Below, piece by piece: positions 2 through 10,052 of a stretch of 10,052 nucleotides of DNA. The notes below the pieces were generated by a model. The model saw only the letters and a program-made list of their open reading frames with translations. It had not been told where the DNA came from and ran no database searches. The first letter of the stretch is position 1. Each line of letters opens with the position of its first letter. The stretch is from assembly GCA_016213455.1 (NCBI GenBank), contig JACRAG010000108.1, positions 1-10,052 on the forward strand, in the 5' to 3' direction. The position numbers and the translations under genes are program-made. The stretch comes from Anaerolineae bacterium. Its GTDB lineage: Bacteria; Chloroflexota; Anaerolineae; Anaerolineales; Anaerolineaceae.

Positions 2-1999
<1,998 letters not shown>

Positions 2000-2204: not shown

Positions 2205-2220
2205 TGTGATAAATGTCACA
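2205..2220 (+). promoter_or_regulatory. CRP-type activator site (TGTGA-N6-TCACA)
   Basis: TGTGA at 2205-2209 and TCACA at 2216-2220 form a perfect inverted repeat with a 6-base spacer, the same core as the enterobacterial CRP consensus, followed by TTT as in the extended consensus. Its centre (2212.5) lies about 60 bases upstream of the start point predicted from the -10 box, close to the -61.5 of class I CRP-dependent promoters. The spacing is read from the sequence. That a CRP/FNR-family regulator binds here is inference. Confidence 0.6.
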
Positions 2221-2236
2221 TTTCGAAAAATATGAC

Positions 2237-2265
2237 TTGACTCTCAAAGTTGTTTTTGTTATTCT
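2237..2265 (+). promoter_or_regulatory. Sigma-70-type promoter of the sugar operon
   Basis: A -35 box TTGACT (2237-2242) and a -10 box TATTCT (2260-2265) are separated by exactly 17 bases in a locally AT-rich stretch. The predicted transcription start is near 2272, giving a leader of about 47 bases before the regulator ATG. An alternative -10 within the TATATA at 2265-2270 would need a 22-base spacer and is less likely. Confidence 0.65.
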
Positions 2266-2270
2266 ATATA

Positions 2271-2302
2271 TGAAAATATTCTCGTATCTGAAAAGATTTT
2301 CA
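2271..2302 (+). promoter_or_regulatory. Candidate operator for the SorC-type regulator
   Basis: TGAAAA-GA-TTTTCA at 2289-2302 is a perfect 6-2-6 palindrome. A second copy of its left half, TGAAAATATT (2271-2280), precedes it by 18 bases and matches TGAAAAGATT at 9 of 10 positions. The element begins at the predicted transcription start, where a bound repressor would block initiation. Autoregulation by the adjacent SorC-family protein is inferred from position; the sequence does not prove it. Confidence 0.55.
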
Positions 2303-2318
2303 TAAATAAACCACAACC

Positions 2319-3275
2319 ATGGTCAAACTCTCCCCGCTGGATGAGACGCGATTGCTGGTGAAAGTCAGCAAGCTGTACTACGAAGAAGGGCTTTCGCAGG
2401 ACGATATCATCCTGCGTTTGAATCTCTCGCGCTCGAAGATCTCCCGCCTGTTACAGCAGGCGCGGGATGAGGGGATTGTCCAGATCACCGTGGTGACGCC
2501 CAAACACCTGTATTCGGACCTTGAAAACCGGTTGGAGAAACACTTTGGGCTGCAAGAAGCAGTGGTGGTGGAAACACACGCCGGTGACACGCAGGAAAAT
2601 GTGCTGCGCGCGCTGGGTGTCGCCGCCGCGGGGTACCTGGAGCGGGCGGTTACGGCATCGACCACCCTGGGTATTTCCTGGGGTTCGACGCTGAACAGCA
2701 TGGTCGCGGCGATGCGTCCCATTTCGCTTCCCAACGTCAACGTGGTGCAAATCATTGGCGGGTTGGGGCAGCCGGAAGCAGAAATCCATGCCACCGATCT
2801 GTGTCACCGGCTGGCGCGGGCTTTGAATGGGCAGCTGACCTTGCTGCCAGCGCCCGGGATTGTCGGCAGCCAGCAGGCGCGTGAAGTATTGTTGGCTGAC
2901 ACATATGTCCGGCGGGCGGTGGAGATGTTCAGCCGCCTTGACCTGGCGTTTGTCGGCATTGGCGCGCCGACTCCTGAGTCGCTGATGATGCGGGACGGCT
3001 CCATTCTTTCGGCGCATGAAATGGAGCTCTTGCTTCAAAATGGGGCGGTTGGCGACATCGCGCTGCGATTCTTTGACGGGTTGGGGCAGCCGGTGGGTTC
3101 AGATATCGATCAACGCGTAATCGGCATTACGCTCGAGCAGTTGAAACGCGTGCCCCGCGTGGTGGGCATTGCGGGCGGCGCGGAAAAGCACCGGGCTGTG
3201 CGCGGGGCATTGGCGGGCAGGTTGGTGCATGTTTTGATCACCGACTCGGTGACCGCCGGGAAACTGCTGGAGTAA
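2319..3275 (+). CDS. SorC/DeoR-type sugar-responsive transcriptional regulator
   Basis: 318 residues, the usual length for the SorC family (DNA-binding helix-turn-helix plus C-terminal sugar-phosphate-binding domain related to SIS/NagB folds). Residues 8-24 (LVKVSKLYYEEG) and the helix-turn-helix at about 25-47 (LSQDDIILRLNLSRSKISRLLQQ) match the family signature. The effector domain shows GISWGSTL, the FVGIGAPTPES loop, and near the end GIAGGAEKHRAVRGAL followed by VLITD. The only nearby start is the ATG at 2319, because an in-frame TAA lies at 2307-2309. No Shine-Dalgarno is visible before it, unlike the other genes of this operon. It is first in the operon, 22 bases before the SIS gene, and probably regulates its own operon in response to a phosphorylated sugar. 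The effector is unknown. Confidence 0.95.
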   Translation: MVKLSPLDETRLLVKVSKLYYEEGLSQDDIILRLNLSRSKISRLLQQARDEGIVQITVVTPKHLYSDLENRLEKHFGLQEAVVVETHAGDTQENVLRALGVAAAGYLERAVTASTTLGISWGSTLNSMVAAMRPISLPNVNVVQIIGGLGQPEAEIHATDLCHRLARALNGQLTLLPAPGIVGSQQAREVLLADTYVRRAVEMFSRLDLAFVGIGAPTPESLMMRDGSILSAHEMELLLQNGAVGDIALRFFDGLGQPVGSDIDQRVIGITLEQLKRVPRVVGIAGGAEKHRAVRGALAGRLVHVLITDSVTAGKLLE

Positions 3276-3297
3276 TCCTTTATTGATTGAGGTAGGT

Positions 3298-3900
3298 ATG
3301 AACGAAGACCAAATTTTAGAGATGGCCGCCCAGGTCATTGAAACAGAAAGCCGGGCTGTAGCCAGTTTGATGGACCAGCTCAAGCCTTCTCTGGTGCAGG
3401 CGGCGACGGCGATGTTGAACTGTAAAGGTCATGTGATTGTGGCTGGCGCAGGGACAAGCCATGCCGTGGCGCTGCGTTTTGCGCACCTGCTGTCTTGCTG
3501 TGGAACACCAGCCCTGTTCTTACATCCTGGCGACAGCCAGCATGGTTCGGCGGGGGCAGTGCGGGCAGAGGATGTGCTGGTGGCGCTCTCCAAGGGTGGG
3601 GAAACCACTGAAGTCAATTTCCTGGCGCGCGTCGCAAAAGAGCGTGGGGCGGTGGTGATCGGGATCACCGAAAAACCGGCTTCCACCCTGGGAAGAATGA
3701 GCGATATTACGCTTGAGATTAAAGCGCCAGAGGGCGTTGATCCGTATGGGATGATTGCCACCGGCAGCTCCTTGTTTAATGCAGCCTATTGTGACGCATT
3801 GTGCATCGTCCTGCTCAATCTGCGCGGTTACTCGGTGGAACAGTTTGGACAGACGCATCCAGGCGGCGCGGTCGGGCAAAAACTGAAAGGGGTGGCCTGA
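3298..3900 (+). CDS. SIS-domain sugar-phosphate isomerase, KpsF/GutQ-like, no CBS domains
   Basis: 200 residues containing a single SIS domain. Family marks are VIVAGAGTSHAVA (about 47-58, phosphosugar-binding loop), LFLHPGDSQHGS with His82, the LSKGGET motif (97-103) and the C-terminal HPGGAVG (187-193), the last being typical of arabinose-5-phosphate isomerases such as KdsD and GutQ. Those enzymes carry two CBS domains after the SIS domain; here the protein stops about 7 residues after HPGGAVG. The glycine-rich loop reads AGTSH rather than the GMGKSG of KdsD, so a different sugar phosphate is plausible. The start is the ATG at 3298 with GAGG at 3289-3292; the TTG at 3283 has no such signal. 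Its stop TGA shares its last base with the next ATG, so translational coupling is likely. Aldose-ketose isomerisation of a phosphorylated sugar is inferred. Confidence 0.92.
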   Translation: MNEDQILEMAAQVIETESRAVASLMDQLKPSLVQAATAMLNCKGHVIVAGAGTSHAVALRFAHLLSCCGTPALFLHPGDSQHGSAGAVRAEDVLVALSKGGETTEVNFLARVAKERGAVVIGITEKPASTLGRMSDITLEIKAPEGVDPYGMIATGSSLFNAAYCDALCIVLLNLRGYSVEQFGQTHPGGAVGQKLKGVA

Positions 3901-4946
3901 TGATGAAAGCAGCCTATGTGACCGACCCGATGCGCATTGTTCTGCGCGAAACACAGGTTCCCACTCCCCCGGACGATGGGCTTGTGATGGCTGTCAAAGC
4001 CTGCGGCGTGTGCGGTTCGGATCTGCGCCGCTGGCGTGAGGGCGCTTATGCGGGTAGCGAAGACTTGATTGCCGGGCATGAAATCGCGGGTGTGGTGACC
4101 GGCGTGGGCAGCCAGGTCAAAGATTACCAGGTGGGCGATTTTCTGGCTGTTGCTCCCGACGTGCACTGCGGCAAATGCTACTACTGCGAACACGGACTCT
4201 ACAACCTGTGTGATGACCTGCACCTGATCGGCATCACGCCGGGTTATAACGGCGGTTTCGCCGAATCGATGGTGTTGACCGGTGAGATGTTGCGCGGTGG
4301 TATTGTTCACCGGGCGCCGGGGTCGATGAGCTTTTCGCAGGCAGCGCTGGCAGAACCGCTCAGCTCGGTGCTGGCTTCGCATGCCGAAGCGAGTACCACC
4401 CTGGGGGATACGGTCGTGGTGATGGGTGGGGGGCCGATCGGCTGCCTGCATATTGCCGTGGCGCATGCGCGCGGCGCGCGGGTGATCCTGTCGGAGCCGA
4501 GCGCCGTCCGCCGCCAGATTGCCGGGCGTTTTTCGCCCGAATGGATTTTTGACCCCACGACATCCAACCTGGTTGAGGAAGTGCGCCGGGTCACGAACGG
4601 GCGCGGCGCCGATCTTGCCCTCTGCGCCAACCCGGTGGCAGCTACGCACACCCAGGCGGTCGAACTGGTGCGTAAACGCGGCAAAGTGGTGTTGTTTGGC
4701 GGACTGCCCAAAGCCAGCCCAATGACCACCCTGGACGGCAACCGCCTGCACTATAACGAAATTCGCGTTTTGGGGGCTTTCTCCTATCATCCCAGCTACC
4801 ACGCCCTGGCCCTGGAGACGATTGAACGCGGGCTGATCAACAGCGAACACATGATTACGCATACTTTCCCACTTGCAGAGATTGACCGGGCTTTCCAGAC
4901 GGCTGCCAGCGGCGAAGCACTTAAAGTGATGGTAACGATCGATTAA
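3900..4946 (+). CDS. Zinc-dependent NAD-linked polyol/alcohol dehydrogenase (MDR family)
   Basis: 348 residues, medium-chain dehydrogenase/reductase of the sorbitol/threonine dehydrogenase branch. Catalytic zinc ligands are visible as Cys38 (GVCGSD), His60-Glu61 (AGHEIAG) and Glu152 (LAEPLSS). The structural zinc site is complete with Cys90, Cys93, Cys96 and Cys104 (HCGKCYYCEHG, then NLCDD). The Rossmann loop is GGGPIG (176-181), and an acidic residue at the end of the second strand (ILSEP, Glu199) favours NAD over NADP. The start is the ATG at 3900, overlapping the previous stop as ATGA-type coupling, with AAAGGGG at 3886-3892 as ribosome-binding site; the ATG at 3903 is also possible. It probably oxidises a secondary hydroxyl of a sugar, polyol or sugar acid between the neighbouring isomerases. 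The substrate cannot be read from sequence. Confidence 0.95.
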   Translation: MMKAAYVTDPMRIVLRETQVPTPPDDGLVMAVKACGVCGSDLRRWREGAYAGSEDLIAGHEIAGVVTGVGSQVKDYQVGDFLAVAPDVHCGKCYYCEHGLYNLCDDLHLIGITPGYNGGFAESMVLTGEMLRGGIVHRAPGSMSFSQAALAEPLSSVLASHAEASTTLGDTVVVMGGGPIGCLHIAVAHARGARVILSEPSAVRRQIAGRFSPEWIFDPTTSNLVEEVRRVTNGRGADLALCANPVAATHTQAVELVRKRGKVVLFGGLPKASPMTTLDGNRLHYNEIRVLGAFSYHPSYHALALETIERGLINSEHMITHTFPLAEIDRAFQTAASGEALKVMVTID

Positions 4947-4958
4947 CAGAGGAACCCA

Positions 4959-6305
4959 ATGATCGGACTCAACTACGAACTCGAACAACGCGAAGCATCC
5001 GGCAACCCTGTGCGCGTCGGGCTGATCGGCGCCGGGCAAATGGGCACAGACGTGGTGGCGACCACCAGGATGATGAAAGGCATCCGCATCGTGGTCTCTG
5101 CGGATATTGATATCGAACGCGCCATCGCGGCATATAAAATTGCCCAGATCGAGGGTGATGTGGTGGTGGCTGAGACGGCGCAGCAGGCTGATGAAGCGGT
5201 GGCTGCCGGCAAGCTGGTTGCCGCCCGCGACTATCGGGTGGTCACGGACATGAAGAACATCGACGTGATGCTCGAAGCGACCGGCGTGCCTGAGATCGGC
5301 ACGCGCGCAGCCCTGCGGTCGGCGCGTAACGGGCAGGATCTGGCGATGATGAATGTGGAAACGGATATCACCGTCGGCCCCATCCTGCACTGGTATGCCG
5401 GGCAAAAGGGCGTGCTGTATGCCCTGGCTGCCGGCGACGAGCCTGCCGCCTGCAAGGAACTGTATGATCTGGCTGTTTCGATGGGTTTCACCGTGGTGGC
5501 TGCGGGGAAAGGCAAGAACAATCCGCTCGACCGGCACGGCACACCCGCCGACCCTGCCATTCAAAAAGAAGCCGCCCGGCGCGGTCTCAGCCCGAACATG
5601 TTGATCGAGTTCATCGATGGTTCCAAAACCATGATTGAGATGGCGGCGGTGTCCAATGCCACCGGTCTCATTCCGGATGTACGCGGCATGCATGGTCCAA
5701 GCACCGACCGCGACCATTTGAACCAGACTTTTGCCCTCAAAGAGGAGGGCGGTGTGCTGAACAAGATGGGCGTGGTTGATTACGGCATCGGGCGGGTGGC
5801 TCCGGGTGTGTTCCTGATCGTGCGTACCGATCATCCGCGCCTGCGCGAAGCAATGATCCTGCGCGATATGGGCAACGGCCCATATTACACCTTGTTCCGA
5901 CCCTTCCACCTGTGCAGCATCGAAGTTCCCCTGACCTGTGCCATGCTCGGCATTCGCAAACAGTCGAATATGGTGCCGCTCAACCGCCTGGTCTCCGAAG
6001 TCTTTGCAGTCGCCAAACGCGATCTGCTCCCCGGCGACACGCTGGACGCGATTGGTGGGACGGCTTATTACAGCCTGATCGACACGTATGAAACCGCCAA
6101 AGCCGAATGCCTGCTGCCGATTGGGCTGGCAAAAGGCGCCAGGGTTATCCGCCCGATCCAAATGGATGCGCCGATCACCTGCGCAGATGTCGAAATCAAA
6201 CCGTCCACGGTTTACAGCCTGCGCCAGCTGCAGGAGCAGTGGTTTGAGGGCAAGATCAGCGAGCCGGAATTGCTCAAAGCCGTGGATGAGCTGGCAGCAG
6301 ATTAA
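4959..6305 (+). CDS. COG4091-type NAD(P)-dependent oxidoreductase with SAF domain, DXR-like (DRL) family
   Basis: 448 residues. The N-terminal Rossmann fold carries GLIGAGQMG (21-29). The middle shows the family blocks VTDMKNIDVMLEATG (95-109), AAGKGKNNPLDRHGTP (181-196), FIDGSKTMIEMAAVSNATG (218-236) and VRGMHGP (241-247). The C-terminal part (about 345-415) is SAF-like, with AVAKRDLLPGDTL and LPIGLAKGARV. This is the group often labelled homoserine dehydrogenase with SAF domain. Its characterised member is Brucella DRL, which turns 1-deoxyxylulose 5-phosphate into the branched methylerythritol phosphate with NADPH. Here the gene sits 12 bases after the dehydrogenase, with GAGGA at 4949-4953, inside a sugar operon. 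A catabolic oxidation or carbon-skeleton rearrangement is therefore more likely than homoserine or isoprenoid synthesis. Family assignment is from recalled motifs; the reaction is inferred. Confidence 0.88.
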   Translation: MIGLNYELEQREASGNPVRVGLIGAGQMGTDVVATTRMMKGIRIVVSADIDIERAIAAYKIAQIEGDVVVAETAQQADEAVAAGKLVAARDYRVVTDMKNIDVMLEATGVPEIGTRAALRSARNGQDLAMMNVETDITVGPILHWYAGQKGVLYALAAGDEPAACKELYDLAVSMGFTVVAAGKGKNNPLDRHGTPADPAIQKEAARRGLSPNMLIEFIDGSKTMIEMAAVSNATGLIPDVRGMHGPSTDRDHLNQTFALKEEGGVLNKMGVVDYGIGRVAPGVFLIVRTDHPRLREAMILRDMGNGPYYTLFRPFHLCSIEVPLTCAMLGIRKQSNMVPLNRLVSEVFAVAKRDLLPGDTLDAIGGTAYYSLIDTYETAKAECLLPIGLAKGARVIRPIQMDAPITCADVEIKPSTVYSLRQLQEQWFEGKISEPELLKAVDELAAD

Positions 6306-6317
6306 GAGCAGCTTTCT

Positions 6318-6367
6318 GCGCGGCACGCTTTCCCGGCAGGGATGGCTTAATCCTCAGGATGCCGCGC
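6318..6367 (+). repeat. Intercistronic hairpin between oxidoreductase and isomerase genes
   Basis: GCGCGGCA (6318-6325) pairs with TGCCGCGC (6360-6367). The enclosed stretch holds two smaller foldbacks, TCCC/GGGA (6331-6334 and 6339-6342) and the odd palindrome ATCCTCAGGAT (6350-6360), the latter sharing a base with the outer stem. No T-run follows. It lies 18 bases before the ribosome-binding site of the next gene, which suggests message stabilisation or dosage control within the operon. Confidence 0.5.
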
Positions 6368-6398
6368 GTCGTCAAGACAAGATTAAAAGGAGAAAAAC

Positions 6399-7808
6399 AT
6401 GGCAAAAGTTACCCTGGGTGTGATCGTTGGCAATCGCGACTTTTTCCCCGACCGGTTGGTGACCGAGGCGCGGGCAGACATCCTCCAATTGTTCCAGGAA
6501 ATGGACATTGAGGCAGTCATTCTCGATGAAAACGCCACCAAGCTGGGCGGGGTGGAGACCTGGACGCATGCCAAAATTTGCGCCGACCTGTTCAAGAAAA
6601 ATGCTGAACGGATTGACGGCATCCTGGTCGTTCTGCCCAATTTTGGTGATGAAAAGGGTGTGGCGGATACGGTCAAGCTCTCCGGGTTAAATGTGCCCAT
6701 TCTGGTGCAGGCCTATCCGGATGACCTGAACCAGCTGACGGTGGAGCGCCGGCGGGACGGGTATTGCGGCAAGATCTCGGTTTGCAACGACCTGCGCCAG
6801 TACGGTTACGCATACAGCCTGACCGAACTGCACACGGTGCATCCCATGACCGAAAGCTTCCGGGCCGATCTGGCAAAATTCGTCGGCGTCTGCCGGGTGG
6901 TGCGGGGATTGAAAAATGCCCGGTTTGGGGCCATCGGCGCGCGCCCCGGCAACTTCAACACCATGCGCTTCAGCGAGAAGATGCTCCAGAATTATGGAAT
7001 GAGCGTCGTGACTGTGGATTTCTCCGAAATCCTGGGCAATGCCGGCAAGCTGACGGACGATGACGCGCGGGTCAAAGAAAAGCTGGCAGCCATCCGGGGC
7101 TACGCCAGGCACGATGCGGTGCCCTCTCCTGCCCTGGTCCGCATGGCCAAACTTGGCCTGGTGATCGATGATTGGATGAAGGAATATGACCTGACCGCCA
7201 GCGCCATCCAGTGCTGGACCTCGCTGCAGCAGAACTACCACATCAATGTGTGCACGCTGATGAGCATGATGAGCGAGCAGCTCATGCCGTCGGCTTGCGA
7301 AGTGGACATCACTGGCGTGGCTTCCATGTACGCGCTGCAGCTGGCTTCCGGTTCTCCGAGCGCGCTGGTTGACTGGAACAACAATTACGGCGGCGATCCC
7401 GACAAGTGCGTGTTGTTCCATTGCGGCAACTGGGCCAAGAGCTTCCTGCCTGAGATCGAAATCAAGAACGCCGAAATTCTGGCGACCACCCTCGGTACGG
7501 ATAACACGTATGGCGCCGTAGCTGGACGCGTACCTGCCGGACCCATGACCTATGCTCGCATCAGCACCGATGACAACCTTGGTTTTATCCGCACCTACGT
7601 TGGCGAAGGTGAGTTCACCAGCGATCCGCTGGATACCTTCGGCGCGCGCGCGGTGATTCACACCCCTGGCTTACAAAAATTGATGCGCTACATCTGCAAG
7701 AATGGCTTTGAGCATCATTGCGCCATGAACGCCTCGCACTCGGCTGACATTCTGGCTGAGGCGTTCGAAACGTACTTCGGCTGGGACGTTTACCATCATT
7801 TGGGTTAG
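6399..7808 (+). CDS. L-fucose/L-arabinose isomerase family protein
   Basis: 469 residues, COG2407-type ketol isomerase, shorter than E. coli FucI (about 590 residues), as many uncharacterised relatives are. Three candidate metal ligands are present: Glu301 in ACEVDITG, Asp325 in LVDWNNN and His447 in NASHSAD. The 24-residue spacing between the Glu and Asp equals that of FucI Glu337 and Asp361, and the His corresponds to FucI His528. Further family marks are [10 protein letters not shown] (78-87) and HCGNWAKSF near 341. The start at 6399 has a strong AAAAGGAG at 6385-6392. It follows the DRL-like gene by 93 bases. It likely interconverts an aldose and ketose using a divalent metal in the cytoplasm. 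The isomerase neighbours and the hydrolase downstream suggest a substrate other than fucose, but which one is unknown. Confidence 0.92.
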
Positions 7809-7837
7809 CCAAAGGTCTTGCAAGAGCGGTTCGATTG

Positions 7838-7904
7838 GAAAGGAGGTGGCTTGCACTTACGAGAAGATGAGAAAACAAGGATACAGACTGCGAGTCCAGG
7901 CTAA
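7838..7904 (+). other. Possible leader peptide with strong ribosome-binding site (weakly supported)
   Basis: AAAGGAGGT is an almost ideal Shine-Dalgarno sequence (GGAGG at 7842-7846), yet no annotated gene starts after it. Four bases beyond GGAGG, a TTG at 7851 opens a 17-codon frame that ends in TAA at 7902-7904 and shares its last A with an ATG at 7904. It may encode a short leader peptide, or the signal may be a remnant. The peptide has no recognisable motif. Confidence 0.2.
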
Positions 7905-7951
7905 TGAACAGGGCAATCTGTATCCCGTCGGTTATGGAAGAAATCCATAAC
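7879..7951 (+). promoter_or_regulatory. Two hairpins in the leader of the binding-protein gene
   Basis: GGATACAGA (7879-7887) pairs perfectly with TCTGTATCC (7917-7925) across 29 bases, and GTTATGG (7931-7937) pairs with CCATAAC (7945-7951) across 7 bases. Both lie in the 194-base gap between the isomerase and the binding protein and end 40 bases before the latter's ribosome-binding site. Neither is followed by a T-run. They may serve as processing or stabilising elements that raise the binding-protein message relative to the enzymes, a pattern common for ABC transporter binding proteins. Confidence 0.45.
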
Positions 7952-8002
7952 AACCTTATTCTACCAAATCGCCGAAACCATTTTGTCTACGGAGTTCAAA
8001 AA

Positions 8003-9025
8003 ATGAAACACCTGGTTCGTGCTTTGTCCTTTTTGCTTGTTTTGTCTTTCTTGTTGACGGCCTGCGCCCCCGCGGCTCAGCCCGCCCAGGAAGCCGGCGA
8101 GAAAAAATACACGATCTGCTTTGCCTTCCAGGATCTTGAAACGGAATTCTGGATGGCGGGACATAAGGCCATCACCGAGACCCTCAAGGCCAAAGGCTAT
8201 GAAGTGGTCGAGGTCAACTCCAATGAAGATGCCAACAAGCAGCTGGAGCAGGTCAAGAACTGCATCGCGCAAAAAGTGGACGGCATCATGGTCATCCCGG
8301 TGGACGGCTCGATTGCCCTGAAACTGATTGCCGAAGCCAACAAAGCCGGCATCCCCATCGGCATCTTCAACCGCCCGCCCCAGAGCGACGAAGGCAATGC
8401 CCTGACCGTTGTGGCGAACAATGAAAAGATCGCCGAAGCGACGGTTGAATATATGGCACAGGAAGCCCAGAAACTGGGCAGGAAAATCAAGCCCCTCATC
8501 ATGGTTGGCGACCTGGGTGACCCCAATGCGGTTGGCCGCAAACAGGGTTTCTACAACGTGATCGAAAAATACCCCGACCTGTTCGAGACCCCGGTGGAAG
8601 TGGCGACCAAATGGAATGCCGACGTGGCCCGCGATGGTCTGCAGGCTGCCATGACCGCCAATCCTGATATCGACTTCCTCTTCACCTCCTCTGACTTCCT
8701 GTATCCCACCATCCAGGGCGTGCTGGAGCCGCTCGGCAAGTGGAAGAAGATCGGAGAAGAAGGTCACGTCATCATGGGCGGTCTCGACGGCGACAAGACA
8801 GCCTGCAGCCTGATGCAGTCGGGCAATGCCTTTGTGGATGCGACCGGCGTGCAGGACCTGTATTTTGAGGCCGATTCCCTGCTGGCTGCCATCATCAAAG
8901 CAGTCGAAACCGGCGAGAAAACCCCGGATGCCTGGCTGGATGACCCCGGCTTTGCGCTGACCCAGGGCAACATGGCTACCAAAGAACTGGATATGTGGGG
9001 CTGTAAGTTGTTCCACGGGAAATAA
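8003..9025 (+). CDS. Sugar ABC transporter substrate-binding lipoprotein (RbsB-like, Peripla_BP_4)
   Basis: 340 residues. Lipoprotein signal peptide: MKHLVR, a hydrophobic stretch, then the lipobox LTAC with Cys21 as the acylated residue, followed by a short Ala/Pro/Gln linker. The mature domain begins at KKYTICFAFQDLETEFW, typical of pulse-type sugar-binding proteins. Diagnostic segments are QVKNCIAQKVDGIMVIPVD, GIPIGIFNRPP, VGDLGDPNAVGRKQGF and GGLDGDKTACSLMQSG. The ATG at 8003 is chosen because it gives a clean signal peptide and has GGAG at 7991-7994. The in-frame ATG at 7904 would add 33 residues ahead of it. The protein would be anchored at the outer face of the cytoplasmic membrane and deliver a sugar, probably a pentose-like sugar or small glycoside, to a permease. 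No permease or ATPase gene follows in the window, which is unusual. Ligand unknown. Confidence 0.95.
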   Translation: MKHLVRALSFLLVLSFLLTACAPAAQPAQEAGEKKYTICFAFQDLETEFWMAGHKAITETLKAKGYEVVEVNSNEDANKQLEQVKNCIAQKVDGIMVIPVDGSIALKLIAEANKAGIPIGIFNRPPQSDEGNALTVVANNEKIAEATVEYMAQEAQKLGRKIKPLIMVGDLGDPNAVGRKQGFYNVIEKYPDLFETPVEVATKWNADVARDGLQAAMTANPDIDFLFTSSDFLYPTIQGVLEPLGKWKKIGEEGHVIMGGLDGDKTACSLMQSGNAFVDATGVQDLYFEADSLLAAIIKAVETGEKTPDAWLDDPGFALTQGNMATKELDMWGCKLFHGK

Positions 9026-9032
9026 AGTGTTC

Positions 9033-9088
9033 ATTGATCTTCAACGGGTGAATGCTTTGTAGGTGGCTGGCCCGGATTGAAGATCAAT
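9033..9088 (+). repeat. Long inverted repeat directly after the binding-protein gene
   Basis: ATTGATCTTCAA (9033-9044) is perfectly complementary to TTGAAGATCAAT (9077-9088), and CGGG/CCCG (9045-9048 and 9071-9074) can extend the stem across a two-base bulge. The loop is about 22 bases. It starts 8 bases after the stop codon. There is no T-run downstream, so it is better read as a 3' stabiliser or a Rho-independent-like element of uncertain strength than as a canonical terminator. Confidence 0.55.
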
Positions 9089-9108
9089 AAGCTGCTGTCA
9101 GAATGATC

Positions 9109-9153
9109 AACGCCGGTTCTCATCGAGAACCCTATCAGTTGGGAACCGGCGTT
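9109..9153 (+). repeat. Overlapping, mutually exclusive hairpins
   Basis: AACGCCGGTTC (9109-9119) pairs with GAACCGGCGTT (9143-9153). A second perfect foldback, GGTTCTC (9115-9121) against GAGAACC (9125-9131), uses part of the same left arm, so the two structures cannot coexist. The arrangement resembles a switch, but no T-run follows and no downstream gene starts close by. It may simply be a second element of the operon's 3' end. Confidence 0.45.
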
Positions 9154-9261
9154 CCCTTGAAGAGGTATTCGTAAAATCAACGAAAGGTTGGATTGCGTAT
9201 AATTTTCTGTGCATTACCGGTACATTATTTGATTGATTGTTGTCAAAGTGTCGTTGGTGAT

Positions 9262-9435
9262 ATGGATAGTCTTTTACTCGGGCAGAAAAATCGCCAAATC
9301 AAAGGTGAGTTCGGCATTTTGGATTACATGACGAAGTGGAACGTGTACGAGGAGTTGGCAAGGCTTGATCGCAACCAACTTCGAATCAATGGAACATTAC
9401 CAGGTGTCTGGCGCTGGTTTAAACAGATGGCGTGA
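9262..9435 (+). CDS. Doubtful small ORF, unrecognised
   Basis: A 57-codon frame starting MDSLLLGQ and ending RWFKQMA; it can be extended upstream to a TTG at 9193 (80 codons). A weak GGTGA (9256-9260) precedes the ATG at 9262. I do not recognise the protein; no signal peptide or membrane segment is visible in the shorter form. Codons such as AGG, CGA, GGA and TTA are used more freely than in neighbouring genes, and the surrounding DNA is AT-richer. This suggests a foreign small gene, a decayed gene fragment, or chance. I would not treat it as real without homologues. Confidence 0.2.
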   Translation: MDSLLLGQKNRQIKGEFGILDYMTKWNVYEELARLDRNQLRINGTLPGVWRWFKQMA

Positions 9436-9438
9436 ACC

Positions 9439-9551
9439 GCACAATAAATGTGCCATTGTTGGGCCAAAATCAGCTTTGACATCTGTGTCTGACCCCGGTT
9501 GACCGGCAGATTTGGCAGGTCAATCGCCGGCTGATGGATCTTTGCCGGCGA
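9439..9551 (+). promoter_or_regulatory. Cluster of short palindromes upstream of the hydrolase gene
   Basis: Within about 110 bases lie GCACA/TGTGC (9439-9443 and 9449-9453), GACA/TGTC (9478-9481 and 9486-9489), TTGACC/GGTCAA (9499-9504 and 9518-9523) and TCGCCGGC/GCCGGCGA (9524-9531 and 9544-9551, 12-base loop). The last two are adjacent. They could be operators or leader hairpins controlling the hydrolase gene, which must have its own promoter if the operon ends after the binding protein. None matches the TGAAAA operator seen before the regulator gene. Confidence 0.35.
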
Positions 9552-9598
9552 AAAAGTTATTGTTAGAACTGAGAGATCATTAATCACAGGGAGTTGTT

Positions 9599-10052
9599 AT
9601 GACTTTTGAACCGATCCACCCCGATTCAAGCGGGCATTTCCTGATCACGCAGAGCGGTCAACCGTTTTTCTGGTTGGGCGATACAGCCTGGGAATTATTC
9701 CACCGTTTGAACCGCGAAGACGCAGAAAAATACCTTGAGACACGCCGCAAGCAGGGTTATAACGTCATCCAGGCGGTCATTCTGGCTGAGTTGGACGGGC
9801 TGCACACCCCCAATGCGTATGGACATATTCCGCTGCTGGGCGACGATCCCACCCGGCCCAATGAAAATTACTTCAAATATGTGGACGAAATCATTCGCCT
9901 TGCCGCGAAAAAGGGACTATACATTGGGCTGCTGCCCACCTGGGCCGATAAGGTGGATGGGCGCAGCGGATGGGGCATCGGTCCGGTGATTTTTAACCCG
10001 GAGAATGCACGTATTTACGGGAAATACCTGGGCCAACGCTACCAGGATGAAC
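9599..10052 (+). CDS. DUF4038/GH140 apiosidase-type glycoside hydrolase, 3' end outside window
   Basis: The first 151 residues of a DUF4038 (Pfam apiosidase-like catalytic domain) protein. Signature segments are [18 protein letters not shown] (20-37), [23 protein letters not shown] (53-75), [17 protein letters not shown] (83-99), [14 protein letters not shown] (106-119) and [16 protein letters not shown] (133-148), all characteristic of the TIM-barrel domain of GH140. The founding GH140 enzyme releases D-apiose from rhamnogalacturonan-II side chains, but the family is broad and other substrates are possible. The catalytic acids fall beyond the window. The start at 9599 has AGGGAG at 9588-9593, and an in-frame TAA at 9581-9583 rules out a longer N-terminus. 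There is therefore no signal peptide, and the enzyme is probably cytoplasmic, acting on small imported glycosides. Confidence 0.9.

Follow-up and report, generated by a model that had tools for sequence, protein, structure and literature searches.

The gene content of this locus suggests part of an operon that breaks down a branched sugar freed from apiosides, with D-apiose as the likeliest candidate, and in which a DRL (DXR type II) oxidoreductase would linearise the branched carbon chain. We regard this reading as tentative, at slightly less than an even chance. Its observed basis is the gene content, its recurrence in other genomes, homology, conserved residues and the missing genes of the MEP pathway. 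An earlier note on this DNA had proposed an apiose-like locus, and the proposal gains support because the module recurs, PF13204 genes are enriched near it, the isomerase family is shared with apiose operons and the DXR-II residues are intact in an order that lacks the MEP pathway; apiose as the substrate is likely rather than proven.

The window (the whole stretch of 10,052 nt that was analysed) is the entire contig C560 of a MAG of 3.03 Mb, a draft in 594 contigs that is 61.6% complete. The genes sit where the earlier note had placed them, and coordinates, strand and Pfam families agree (Table 1).

Table 1. Features of the window, with positions, strand and supporting matches
Feature	Position	Strand	Support
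SorC/DeoR-type sugar-sensing regulator	2319..3275	+	Sugar-bind PF04198 1.4e-72
SIS-domain sugar-phosphate isomerase, KdsD/GutQ-like, 205 aa	3283..3900	+	SIS PF01380 1.7e-21
Zinc-dependent medium-chain dehydrogenase (ZnDH), polyol/threonine type	3900..4946	+	ADH_N/ADH_zinc_N, PF08240/PF00107
DRL (DXR type II) oxidoreductase	4959..6305	+	DRL_cat PF21135 6.3e-62; 3upl 1.9e-116
FucI/AraA-fold aldose-ketose isomerase, predicted	6399..7808	+	Fucose_iso_C 3e-32
Sugar-binding lipoprotein, lipobox LLTAC, ribose/xylose-type ABC importer	8003..9025	+	Peripla_BP_4 PF13407 1.4e-40; start at 8003 likely
Strong RNA hairpin, no U-run, between binding-protein gene and GH140	9109..9153	+	folding
GH140/PF13204 hydrolase, N-terminal 151 aa up to contig end	9599..10052	+	Apiosidase PF13204 5e-56

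The recurring module and its relation to known apiose routes

The SIS, ZnDH and DRL genes form a module with an FGGY kinase and often a FucI-like isomerase, which recurs in sediment, groundwater and gut bacteria of at least eight phyla. SIS and ZnDH genes are each present at 54 of the 56 module places and the FGGY kinase at 48, while no FucI was detected within 11 kb at 22 of the 56, which counts against the apiose reading. The SIS protein reaches 140 bits with the KdsD model, below the cut-off of 505, and its best solved chain is 3fxa, followed by the arabinose 5-phosphate isomerase 2xhz; that it is nearly universal in the module yet has no assigned step in the route proposed below is a point against that route. 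Solved relatives of the ZnDH include the ketose reductase 1e3j as well as sorbitol and L-arabinitol dehydrogenases.

The earlier note had seen no apulose kinase. This is correct for the window, but the kinase is missing because the contig ends, and in relatives the full module includes an FGGY kinase. Four FGGY genes are present in the MAG itself; their identity to the kinase of the related locus L113 is 24-38%, and no orthologue of the module kinase was found among them. Identity of the five compared module kinases to AplK-type (apiose-type) kinases is 24-29%. The known apiose-type kinase and the module kinase are not orthologues, which likewise counts against apiose. Four module-type kinases scanned have XylB as their top model, below its cut-off.

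FucI-like proteins of Sodalis, Klebsiella and Rahnella that lie in AptAB-type operons share 52% identity with the FucI-like protein of the window. The Sodalis operon matches the E. coli apiose-type cluster in its kinase (72%), transketolase halves (78% and 73%) and regulator (72%), the Klebsiella kinase matches that of the cluster at 70%, and the SorC regulator of the window has blastp identities of 39.7% and 40.0% to its counterparts in the apiose-type operons of E. coli and Sodalis. In the FucI tree, fifteen module FucIs including that of the window cluster together with a FucI that is AptAB-linked in a different Anaerolineae genome. The window FucI falls outside the clade with most aldolase-linked rows, so that a plain fucose pathway is disfavoured, with the caveat that the long branches of L147 and L150 come together there. 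Against the apiose reading, five other DRL-linked FucIs stand in a different half of the tree along with two aldolase-linked rows, and class II aldolases adjoin some FucI-like proteins.

The window protein has the fold of L-fucose/L-arabinose isomerases but is only 10-16% identical to the solved enzymes, with no sequence-level match in the PDB, and the operon partners of those isomerases differ from those in the window. Its residues E301, D325 and H440 are invariant in 15 of 15 rows, and the E-to-D spacing of 24 is the same as in E. coli FucI; they may be the counterparts of the metal-ligand triad of that enzyme (E337, D361 and H528).

D-apiose degradation pathway I consists, according to passages of PMC13001218, of an isomerase (apsI), a kinase (aplK) and a transketolase (aptA/aptB), in Pectobacterium and E. 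coli ST131/STc14. Shared with it are an isomerase, probably of the same family, the FGGY kinase (in relatives), the SorC-type regulator (40%) and the ribose-type ABC importer, whose permease and ATPase genes follow the binding-protein gene in L113 and L004, not in the window. By contrast, the module has SIS-ZnDH-DRL where pathway I has the transketolase step. Neither an AptA/AptB split transketolase nor an AplK-type kinase was found in the window; L016 and L031 hold the module plus aptA, aptB and kinase homologues, and only 2 of the 56 module places have both transketolase halves within 11 kb. Oxidative apiose routes lead through apionolactone and apionate and use an oxidoisomerase and RuBisCO-like or decarboxylase enzymes; the presumed substrate is the same, but a Pfam scan of the genes in the window shows none of their domains. 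The earlier note had called the enzyme set non-standard; to call it wholly so is too strong, because the isomerase is probably common to pathway I and the full module includes a kinase.

Linkage of GH140 to the operon

The closest relative is L113 (same contig as L003), with a DRL 90% identical to that of the window. There a GH140 gene, 82% identical to the window GH140 over the available 151 aa, lies directly 3' of the kinase in a cluster with DUF4432 and Rpe. The operon membership of the hydrolase, which the earlier note had called unproven, is still so within the window, but in L113 the gene is inside the same cluster. Compared with the GH140 apiosidases (8t9w; 3kzs/5msy), the L113 orthologue has the 'Apiosidase' 8t9w as its best solved match (4.2e-117, 395 bits, about 430 residues) and reaches 228 bits with 3kzs. 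The window copy, a predicted enzyme, ends at residue 151. No signal peptide was seen on the window GH140 by eye.

It is also conceivable that the adjacency on this contig results from an assembly join or a recent rearrangement and is functionally uninformative here, which would be compatible with any of the other readings. Five genes separate the binding protein from GH140 in L113, where the window has a stretch of 573 nt (9026-9598) without match in L113, L003 or L004, and the draft state of the MAG points the same way. The orthologue within the L113 cluster shows, however, that the linkage is genuine in this relative, and we regard a join or recent rearrangement as rather unlikely.

Among the 34 pre-set module stretches, PF13204 genes occur in 6, against 0.43 expected under uniform placement (tail 2e-6); L113 is outside this count, its stretch having been chosen since it held a match, and L021 was dropped as a linked locus, as only a C-terminal Collagen_bind_2 domain is found there. 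Identity to the window GH140 is 82% only in L113; it is 51% in L039 and 27-32% for the best genes at the other five linked loci. PF13204 is a broad family, and most module-linked members are divergent. Nine Anaerolineaceae genomes with a close DRL have no PF13204 match, which counts against apiose and corresponds in part to the homologous operons without GH140 that the earlier note had named as a refutation. Neither DRL, FucI nor split transketolase was found in ten further PF13204 stretches, which likewise counts against apiose; these come from contig C585 of the same MAG, other contigs of two module genomes, the congeners G001, G002 and G004 (twice), the family members G017 and G018, and G100 of the order. 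Among them, an FGGY gene at the edge of L154 is 39% identical to a module kinase, and L156 holds a ZnDH.

The 36 non-module DRL stretches gave no GH140 match with our own profile, a weak comparison, confined to the stretches themselves. As a neighbour control, we considered 112 further ORFs near modules, 300-1300 aa in length (104 scanned jointly, seven large ones singly, one truncated ORF excluded). No glycoside hydrolase is among the 25 commonest of the 188 families in the joint scan, nor was a glycoside hydrolase catalytic domain found in the seven large ORFs. A rescan of ten of the 104 yielded a GH123-like gene in L013 and a single-chain transketolase in L018.

The DRL and competing readings

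The window DRL is homologous to DXR type II of Brucella (3UPL/3UPY) over residues 1-427 (392 bits) and has the same substrate-binding residues, with K184, K186, T224, H245 and R314 corresponding to Brucella K191, K193, T229, H250 and R320, which are kept in 56 of 56 module DRLs. It differs in its setting in a sugar operon and in the proposed reverse direction on a hydroxylated analogue. Among 151 genomes of the order (Anaerolineales), DXR-I and IspG are found in none and HMG-CoA reductase in 139, so the DRL cannot serve MEP synthesis there. Its role as a chain-linearising step, suggested in the earlier note, thereby gains support as a prediction. Production of MEP for isoprenoids, with incidental neighbours, is the known role of DXR-II, and some DRLs complement E. 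coli dxr mutants according to parts of PMC3847144; given the gene counts, we reject it for this order and consider it extremely improbable, and the linkage to SIS and ZnDH likewise speaks against it. In the module genomes with named loci, DXR-I is present alongside the module in 23 of 34, nine of the 11 without it being Chloroflexota, and it is absent from all eight Hyphomicrobiales genomes with a non-module DRL.

The DRL might instead be an ordinary NAD(P) dehydrogenase of a linear sugar or sugar phosphate, in a pentose or hexose pathway of FucI isomerase, FGGY kinase, SIS and Rpe. Taken singly, such parts are frequent in linear-sugar operons, FucI-like relatives adjoin class II aldolases, an arrangement known from fucose pathways, and the XylB-like kinase matches fit as well. 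This appears improbable to us since an isomerase, FGGY kinase and Rpe pathway has no need of a DRL, the window FucI stands apart from most aldolase-linked rows, and the retained residues include T229 and H250, which are replaced in DLO1/DLO2 (passages of PMC3847144). A somewhat likelier alternative, though still improbable, is another branched substrate, be it 2-C-methylerythritol, hamamelose or a different branched polyol or sugar, with the same DRL chemistry and a loosely linked GH140. The nine relatives without PF13204 favour it. Related DRLs adjoin E1/E2 dehydrogenase genes or a polyol PTS (22 of 117 places of other DRLs), the latter in line with polyol-phosphate oxidation by the DRL family, a point also for the apiose reading, and this would fit a conversion of MEP via DXP to acetyl-CoA and glyceraldehyde 3-phosphate. 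Of the 56 module places, 4 (L006, L008, L009, L041) have E1-type genes within 11 kb, in the first three 9-10 kb downstream, which would suit methylerythritol. On the same strand within 4 kb, however, the E1 genes needed for a DXP product occur at only one (L041) of 58 module places (L083 and L113 repeat others), window positions 310 and 232 set the module DRLs apart from the PTS/E1E2 type, and PF13204 and apt-type neighbours favour apiose.

Proposed route and wider meaning

For D-apiose, we infer every substrate and reaction as well as the order of reduction and phosphorylation. A cytoplasmic GH140 would release free apiose, which the FucI-like enzyme would convert to the achiral apulose and the ZnDH would reduce to apiitol. 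The FGGY kinase, absent from the contig, may then phosphorylate the CH2OH adjoining CHOH, giving 2-C-(hydroxymethyl)tetritol 4-phosphate, that is, MEP with CH2OH in place of CH3. With NAD(P)+, the DRL would oxidise the CH2OH on the quaternary carbon of this apiitol phosphate, and a retro-aldol/aldol rearrangement, DXP reductoisomerase in reverse, would yield a pentulose 5-phosphate that Rpe, and possibly SIS, could pass to the pentose phosphate pathway. The net reaction would be apiose + ATP to pentulose 5-phosphate + ADP, and the hydride taken by the dehydrogenase would be given back by the DRL if both use the same cofactor.

Such a route would open a branched sugar in a new way, by a reversed reaction of isoprenoid synthesis, and, if true, make the module a third kind of apiose route. 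As a possible but doubtful generalisation, DRL/DXR-II may primarily be a catabolic branched-alditol-phosphate oxidoisomerase, acting on apiitol phosphate to form pentulose 5-phosphate in SIS-ZnDH-FGGY modules and, in operons with a glucitol-type PTS and/or E1/E2 genes, on methylerythritol phosphate made on uptake to form DXP and thence acetyl-CoA and glyceraldehyde 3-phosphate, with the Brucella-type isoprenoid role as a recruitment. As far as passages of PMC3847144 go, the DRL family has no single accompanying pattern of isoprenoid-pathway enzymes, and DXR-II activity occurs in Chloroflexus, which has just the mevalonate pathway, and in Finegoldia, which has neither pathway; recruitment of a catabolic DRL, if true, would explain active DXR-II in such bacteria without the MEP pathway. 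In open-licence literature, apiose with apulose and GH140 with apiose gave no match, the matches for apiitol and for hamamelose with catabolism concern other matters by title, and the matches listed for apiosidase and for methylerythritol with catabolism and carbon source do not describe such a route.

A promoter-like site 5' of the SorC gene is at chance level (2 sites in the window against 3.2 expected), and no known RNA family was found in the window. The hairpin downstream of the binding-protein gene is strong (-26.9 kcal/mol for a 76-nt stretch, z -2.9, none of 200 shuffles equally stable) and is possibly an attenuator or an mRNA-processing stem.

Gene content and recurrence of the DRL module

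Gene calls and domain matches in the window confirm the gene content described in the earlier note. On the + strand the order is katG, SorC, SIS, ZnDH, DRL, FucI-like isomerase, sugar-binding lipoprotein and the start of GH140, of which only the N-terminal 151 aa are present. The spacing is close from SorC to DRL (7 nt, an overlap, 12 nt) and widens afterwards to 93, 194 and finally 573 nt. A strong hairpin lies inside this 573-nt gap upstream of GH140, which may be transcribed separately. For the katG-type peroxidase at the contig start we found nothing that points to membership in the module.

For the wider comparison, species genomes were scanned with a DRL profile, the best 80 of 550 confirmed loci were kept and their ORFs were then searched with profiles. 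A DRL counts as a module place when two or more of SIS, ZnDH and FGGY kinase lie within 6 kb; each DRL is counted once, and the duplicates L003, L083 and L129 are excluded. In all, 56 places fall under this definition. Within 11 kb of the DRL, ZnDH and SIS are each present at 54/56 and FGGY at 48/56, which is partly built in by the definition. FucI-like isomerases (34/56), SBP (24), SorC (15), M24 (12), DUF4432 (4), E1alpha (4), Rpe (3) and GH140 profile matches (8) were counted over the same distance on contigs many of which are short; seven of the eight GH140 places, i.e., the window and six others, have PF13204 by Pfam. Among the hosts are members of Chloroflexota, Planctomycetota, Sumerlaeota, Acidobacteriota, Bacillota, Spirochaetota, Verrucomicrobiota, Synergistota and Fibrobacterota, with one in Pseudomonadota. 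Thermanaerothrix daxensis (L007) and Pelolinea submarina (L008) are module carriers available in culture. The interpretation as an apiose-type branched-sugar locus with a DRL is upheld in part, but to call the enzyme set non-standard, as the earlier note did, goes too far, since a kinase recurs in the module and the isomerase is probably shared with apiose pathway I.

The closest relative, L113, which lies on the contig of L003, has the order SorC, SIS, ZnDH, DRL, PAS/GAF gene, FucI, binding protein, permease, ATPase, permease, GDSL, FGGY, GH140, DUF4432 and Rpe. The window resembles the leading part of such a set whose back end is rearranged or broken: GH140 is the next gene after the one for the binding protein, and the 573 nt between them have no match in L113, L003 or L004.

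Role of the DRL

An isoprenoid role of the DRL is contradicted here by the distribution of pathway enzymes in the order: DXR-I and IspG were found in none of its 151 genomes, the window's own included, and HMG-CoA reductase (HMGR) in 139 of them. The latter is likewise present in eight of the nine other genomes of the family with a close DRL. The MAG whose contig C560 is, over its full length, the window, a draft of 3.03 Mb, has none of the three because it is incomplete (61.6%). Among the 42 genomes behind the named loci, DXR-I occurs alongside the module in 23 of 34 module genomes (Chloroflexota make up nine of the 11 without it) versus none of eight Hyphomicrobiales genomes with a non-module DRL. 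This difference fits a DRL that replaces DXR-I in these Hyphomicrobiales and has another role in the module.

Lys191, Lys193, Thr229, His250 and Arg320 of DXR-II, which PMC3847144 describes as substrate-binding, interface or diagnostic, are kept in all 56 module DRLs and also in most other DRLs compared; for the DLO1 and DLO2 families the same paper reports substitutions of Thr229 and His250. The module DRLs cluster on the DRL tree (four label changes versus a shuffle mean of 36), on which some long rows are unsure. Window position 310 is Tyr in 56/56 module DRLs and Trp or Phe in 29 of 33 DRLs from operons with PTS or E1/E2 genes, and position 232 is Ser in 47/56 and Ala or Gly in 30 of these 33. 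Our guess from the sequences is that Tyr310 and Ser232 might contact an extra hydroxyl. We consider it highly probable that the module DRL is catabolic.

Evidence bearing on apiose as substrate

A PF13204 (GH140/apiosidase) match occurs somewhere in 22 of the 34 module genomes. Of the 34 pre-set module stretches, a count that omits the window and L003, six contain a PF13204 gene (L013, L014, L023, L030, L039 and L053) versus 0.43 expected under uniform gene placement (tail 2e-6); as genes for sugar use tend to lie together, this null model is a weak one. In L003 the GH140 of the cluster lies about 0.7 kb past the end of the stretch examined. Only L113 (82%) and L039 (51%) have a GH140 near the window's own; the best PF13204 genes of the other five linked loci share 27-32% identity with it and so may differ in activity. 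Those PF13204 proteins that bear DUF5060 are perhaps hydrolases other than apiosidases.

The FucI-like proteins in operons of Sodalis, Rahnella and a Klebsiella plasmid are 52% identical to that of the window and neighbour a split transketolase, an FGGY kinase, a sugar-binding regulator and a ribose-type importer. By blastp the genes compared from Sodalis and Klebsiella have orthologues in an E. coli cluster next to entD: the kinase is 72% identical in Sodalis and 70% in Klebsiella, and for Sodalis the two halves of the transketolase share 78% and 73% and the regulator 72%. In position and gene content the E. coli cluster corresponds to the one described in PMC13001218, where the strains named do not include the one compared; the carriers tested in that paper grew on apiose, and two oxidoreductases stand in for the isomerase apsI. 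Another Anaerolineae genome, at locus L150, pairs a FucI-like protein 59% identical to the window's with two AptA/AptB-like halves, at 51% and 34%, and with a kinase that shares 48% identity with the E. coli one. In L016 and L031 the DRL module and homologues of aptA, aptB and the kinase occur together within about 9 kb; identities are 46-51% for the N halves of the transketolase, 32-40% for its C halves and 37-41% for the kinases.

A tree was built from 44 FucI-like rows scoring >600 and longer than 400 aa, after 11 loci that duplicate others or are shorter copies had been excluded. In it, 15 module FucIs including the window's group with L150 and L147 (95/88), a join that may be false because both are long branches. 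A separate clade holds 12 rows, seven of them aldolase- or M24-linked (100/99), and five other DRL-linked FucIs fall in another half of the tree, together with rows from planctomycetes and two that are aldolase-linked. The window's genome has a second FucI-like gene, which belongs to the aldolase/M24 clade (C361), and a more distant third (C46).

Several observations count against apiose. The recurrence of GH140 with homologous loci, which the earlier note proposed as a check, is seen in part: PF13204 occurs in the six stretches and the L113 cluster, but it is absent from all nine other Anaerolineaceae genomes with a close DRL, and of four congeners, three carry PF13204 but lack a match to DRL. 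FucI-like proteins also occur in aldolase-linked loci, a single-chain transketolase is encoded on the opposite strand in the module locus L018, and E1-type genes lie 9-10 kb downstream of DRL in L006, L008 and L009. Ten other PF13204 stretches (L114-L116, L152-L158) contain no DRL, FucI or split transketolase. On balance, the evidence tips somewhat towards apiose.

Proposed chemistry and the wider DRL family

DXR converts R-CO-CHOH-CHOH-CH2OP by retro-aldol and aldol steps into a 2-C-branched aldehyde, which is then reduced. For R = CH3 this yields MEP, and for R = CH2OH it would yield apiitol phosphate. In the module, apiose would be isomerised to apulose, ZnDH would set the configuration needed by DRL, and DRL would run the reaction in reverse, from apiitol phosphate and NAD(P)+ to a pentulose 5-phosphate. 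As apulose has no stereocentre, ZnDH could set this configuration; solved relatives of the window's ZnDH include a ketose reductase and an L-arabinitol dehydrogenase. An alditol rather than apulose as kinase substrate fits a kinase distinct from AplK, and Xu5P or Ru5P as product fits the Rpe of some module copies. SIS fits none of these steps clearly, and arabinose 5-phosphate/ribulose 5-phosphate exchange is our default guess for it. The proposal of a DXR reaction run in reverse is specific and testable, and the module is likely a new, DXR-II-based form of sugar catabolism.

In a wider set of 117 DRL places, searched with our own profiles and in which L083 and L113 repeat others, glucitol-type PTS genes lie near 22, E1alpha/E1beta near 17 and both at five. 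The E1 genes near non-module DRLs are pyruvate/acetoin-dehydrogenase-like. This gene context suggests that 2-C-methylerythritol is taken up as MEP, which DRL would oxidise to DXP for cleavage to acetyl-CoA and GAP. If true, such catabolism would account for the DXR-II carriers without the MEP pathway that PMC3847144 reports.

The best solved match of the window's SIS is 3fxa ("SIS domain protein"), which we take to be a Listeria protein, and in a Listeria innocua record a PTS adjoins DRL.

Locations of individual features and lists of DRL contexts
Feature	Location	Observation
katG-type peroxidase	window 2-1999	upstream of operon; frame open from contig start
SIS	window 3283-3900
57-codon open frame	window 9262-9435	in gap upstream of GH140; could be a remnant or small gene
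PAS/GAF-domain gene	L113:4346-5368	separates DRL and FucI; missing in window
PF13204 with N-terminal DUF5060	L053:5440-6990, L023:4131-5663, L030:13455-15011, L013:6609-8267	near DRL modules; DUF5605 additionally in two of the four
138-aa frame with Collagen_bind_2	L021:2169-2585	C-terminal domain also present in L039 GH140; no PF13204 domain in the frame
Second PF13204 gene of the window's MAG (L114)	G000:C585:3515-3679	cut by contig end
FucI-like (L145)	G000:C361:7480-8901	55% identity; adjoins FGGY kinase and M24-family gene
FucI-like (L119)	G000:C46	about 38% identity; adjoins FGGY kinase
M24-family (prolidase/creatinase-like)	L007:14310-15437, L006:15396-16508, L025:11299-12408	examples near module DRL
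PTS-context DRLs outside module	L077, L093-L095, L097-L112, L124, L125
E1-context DRLs outside module	L034, L045, L057, L059, L062, L069, L072, L073, L076, L079, L126
PTS/E1-context DRLs	L123-L126	annotated examples
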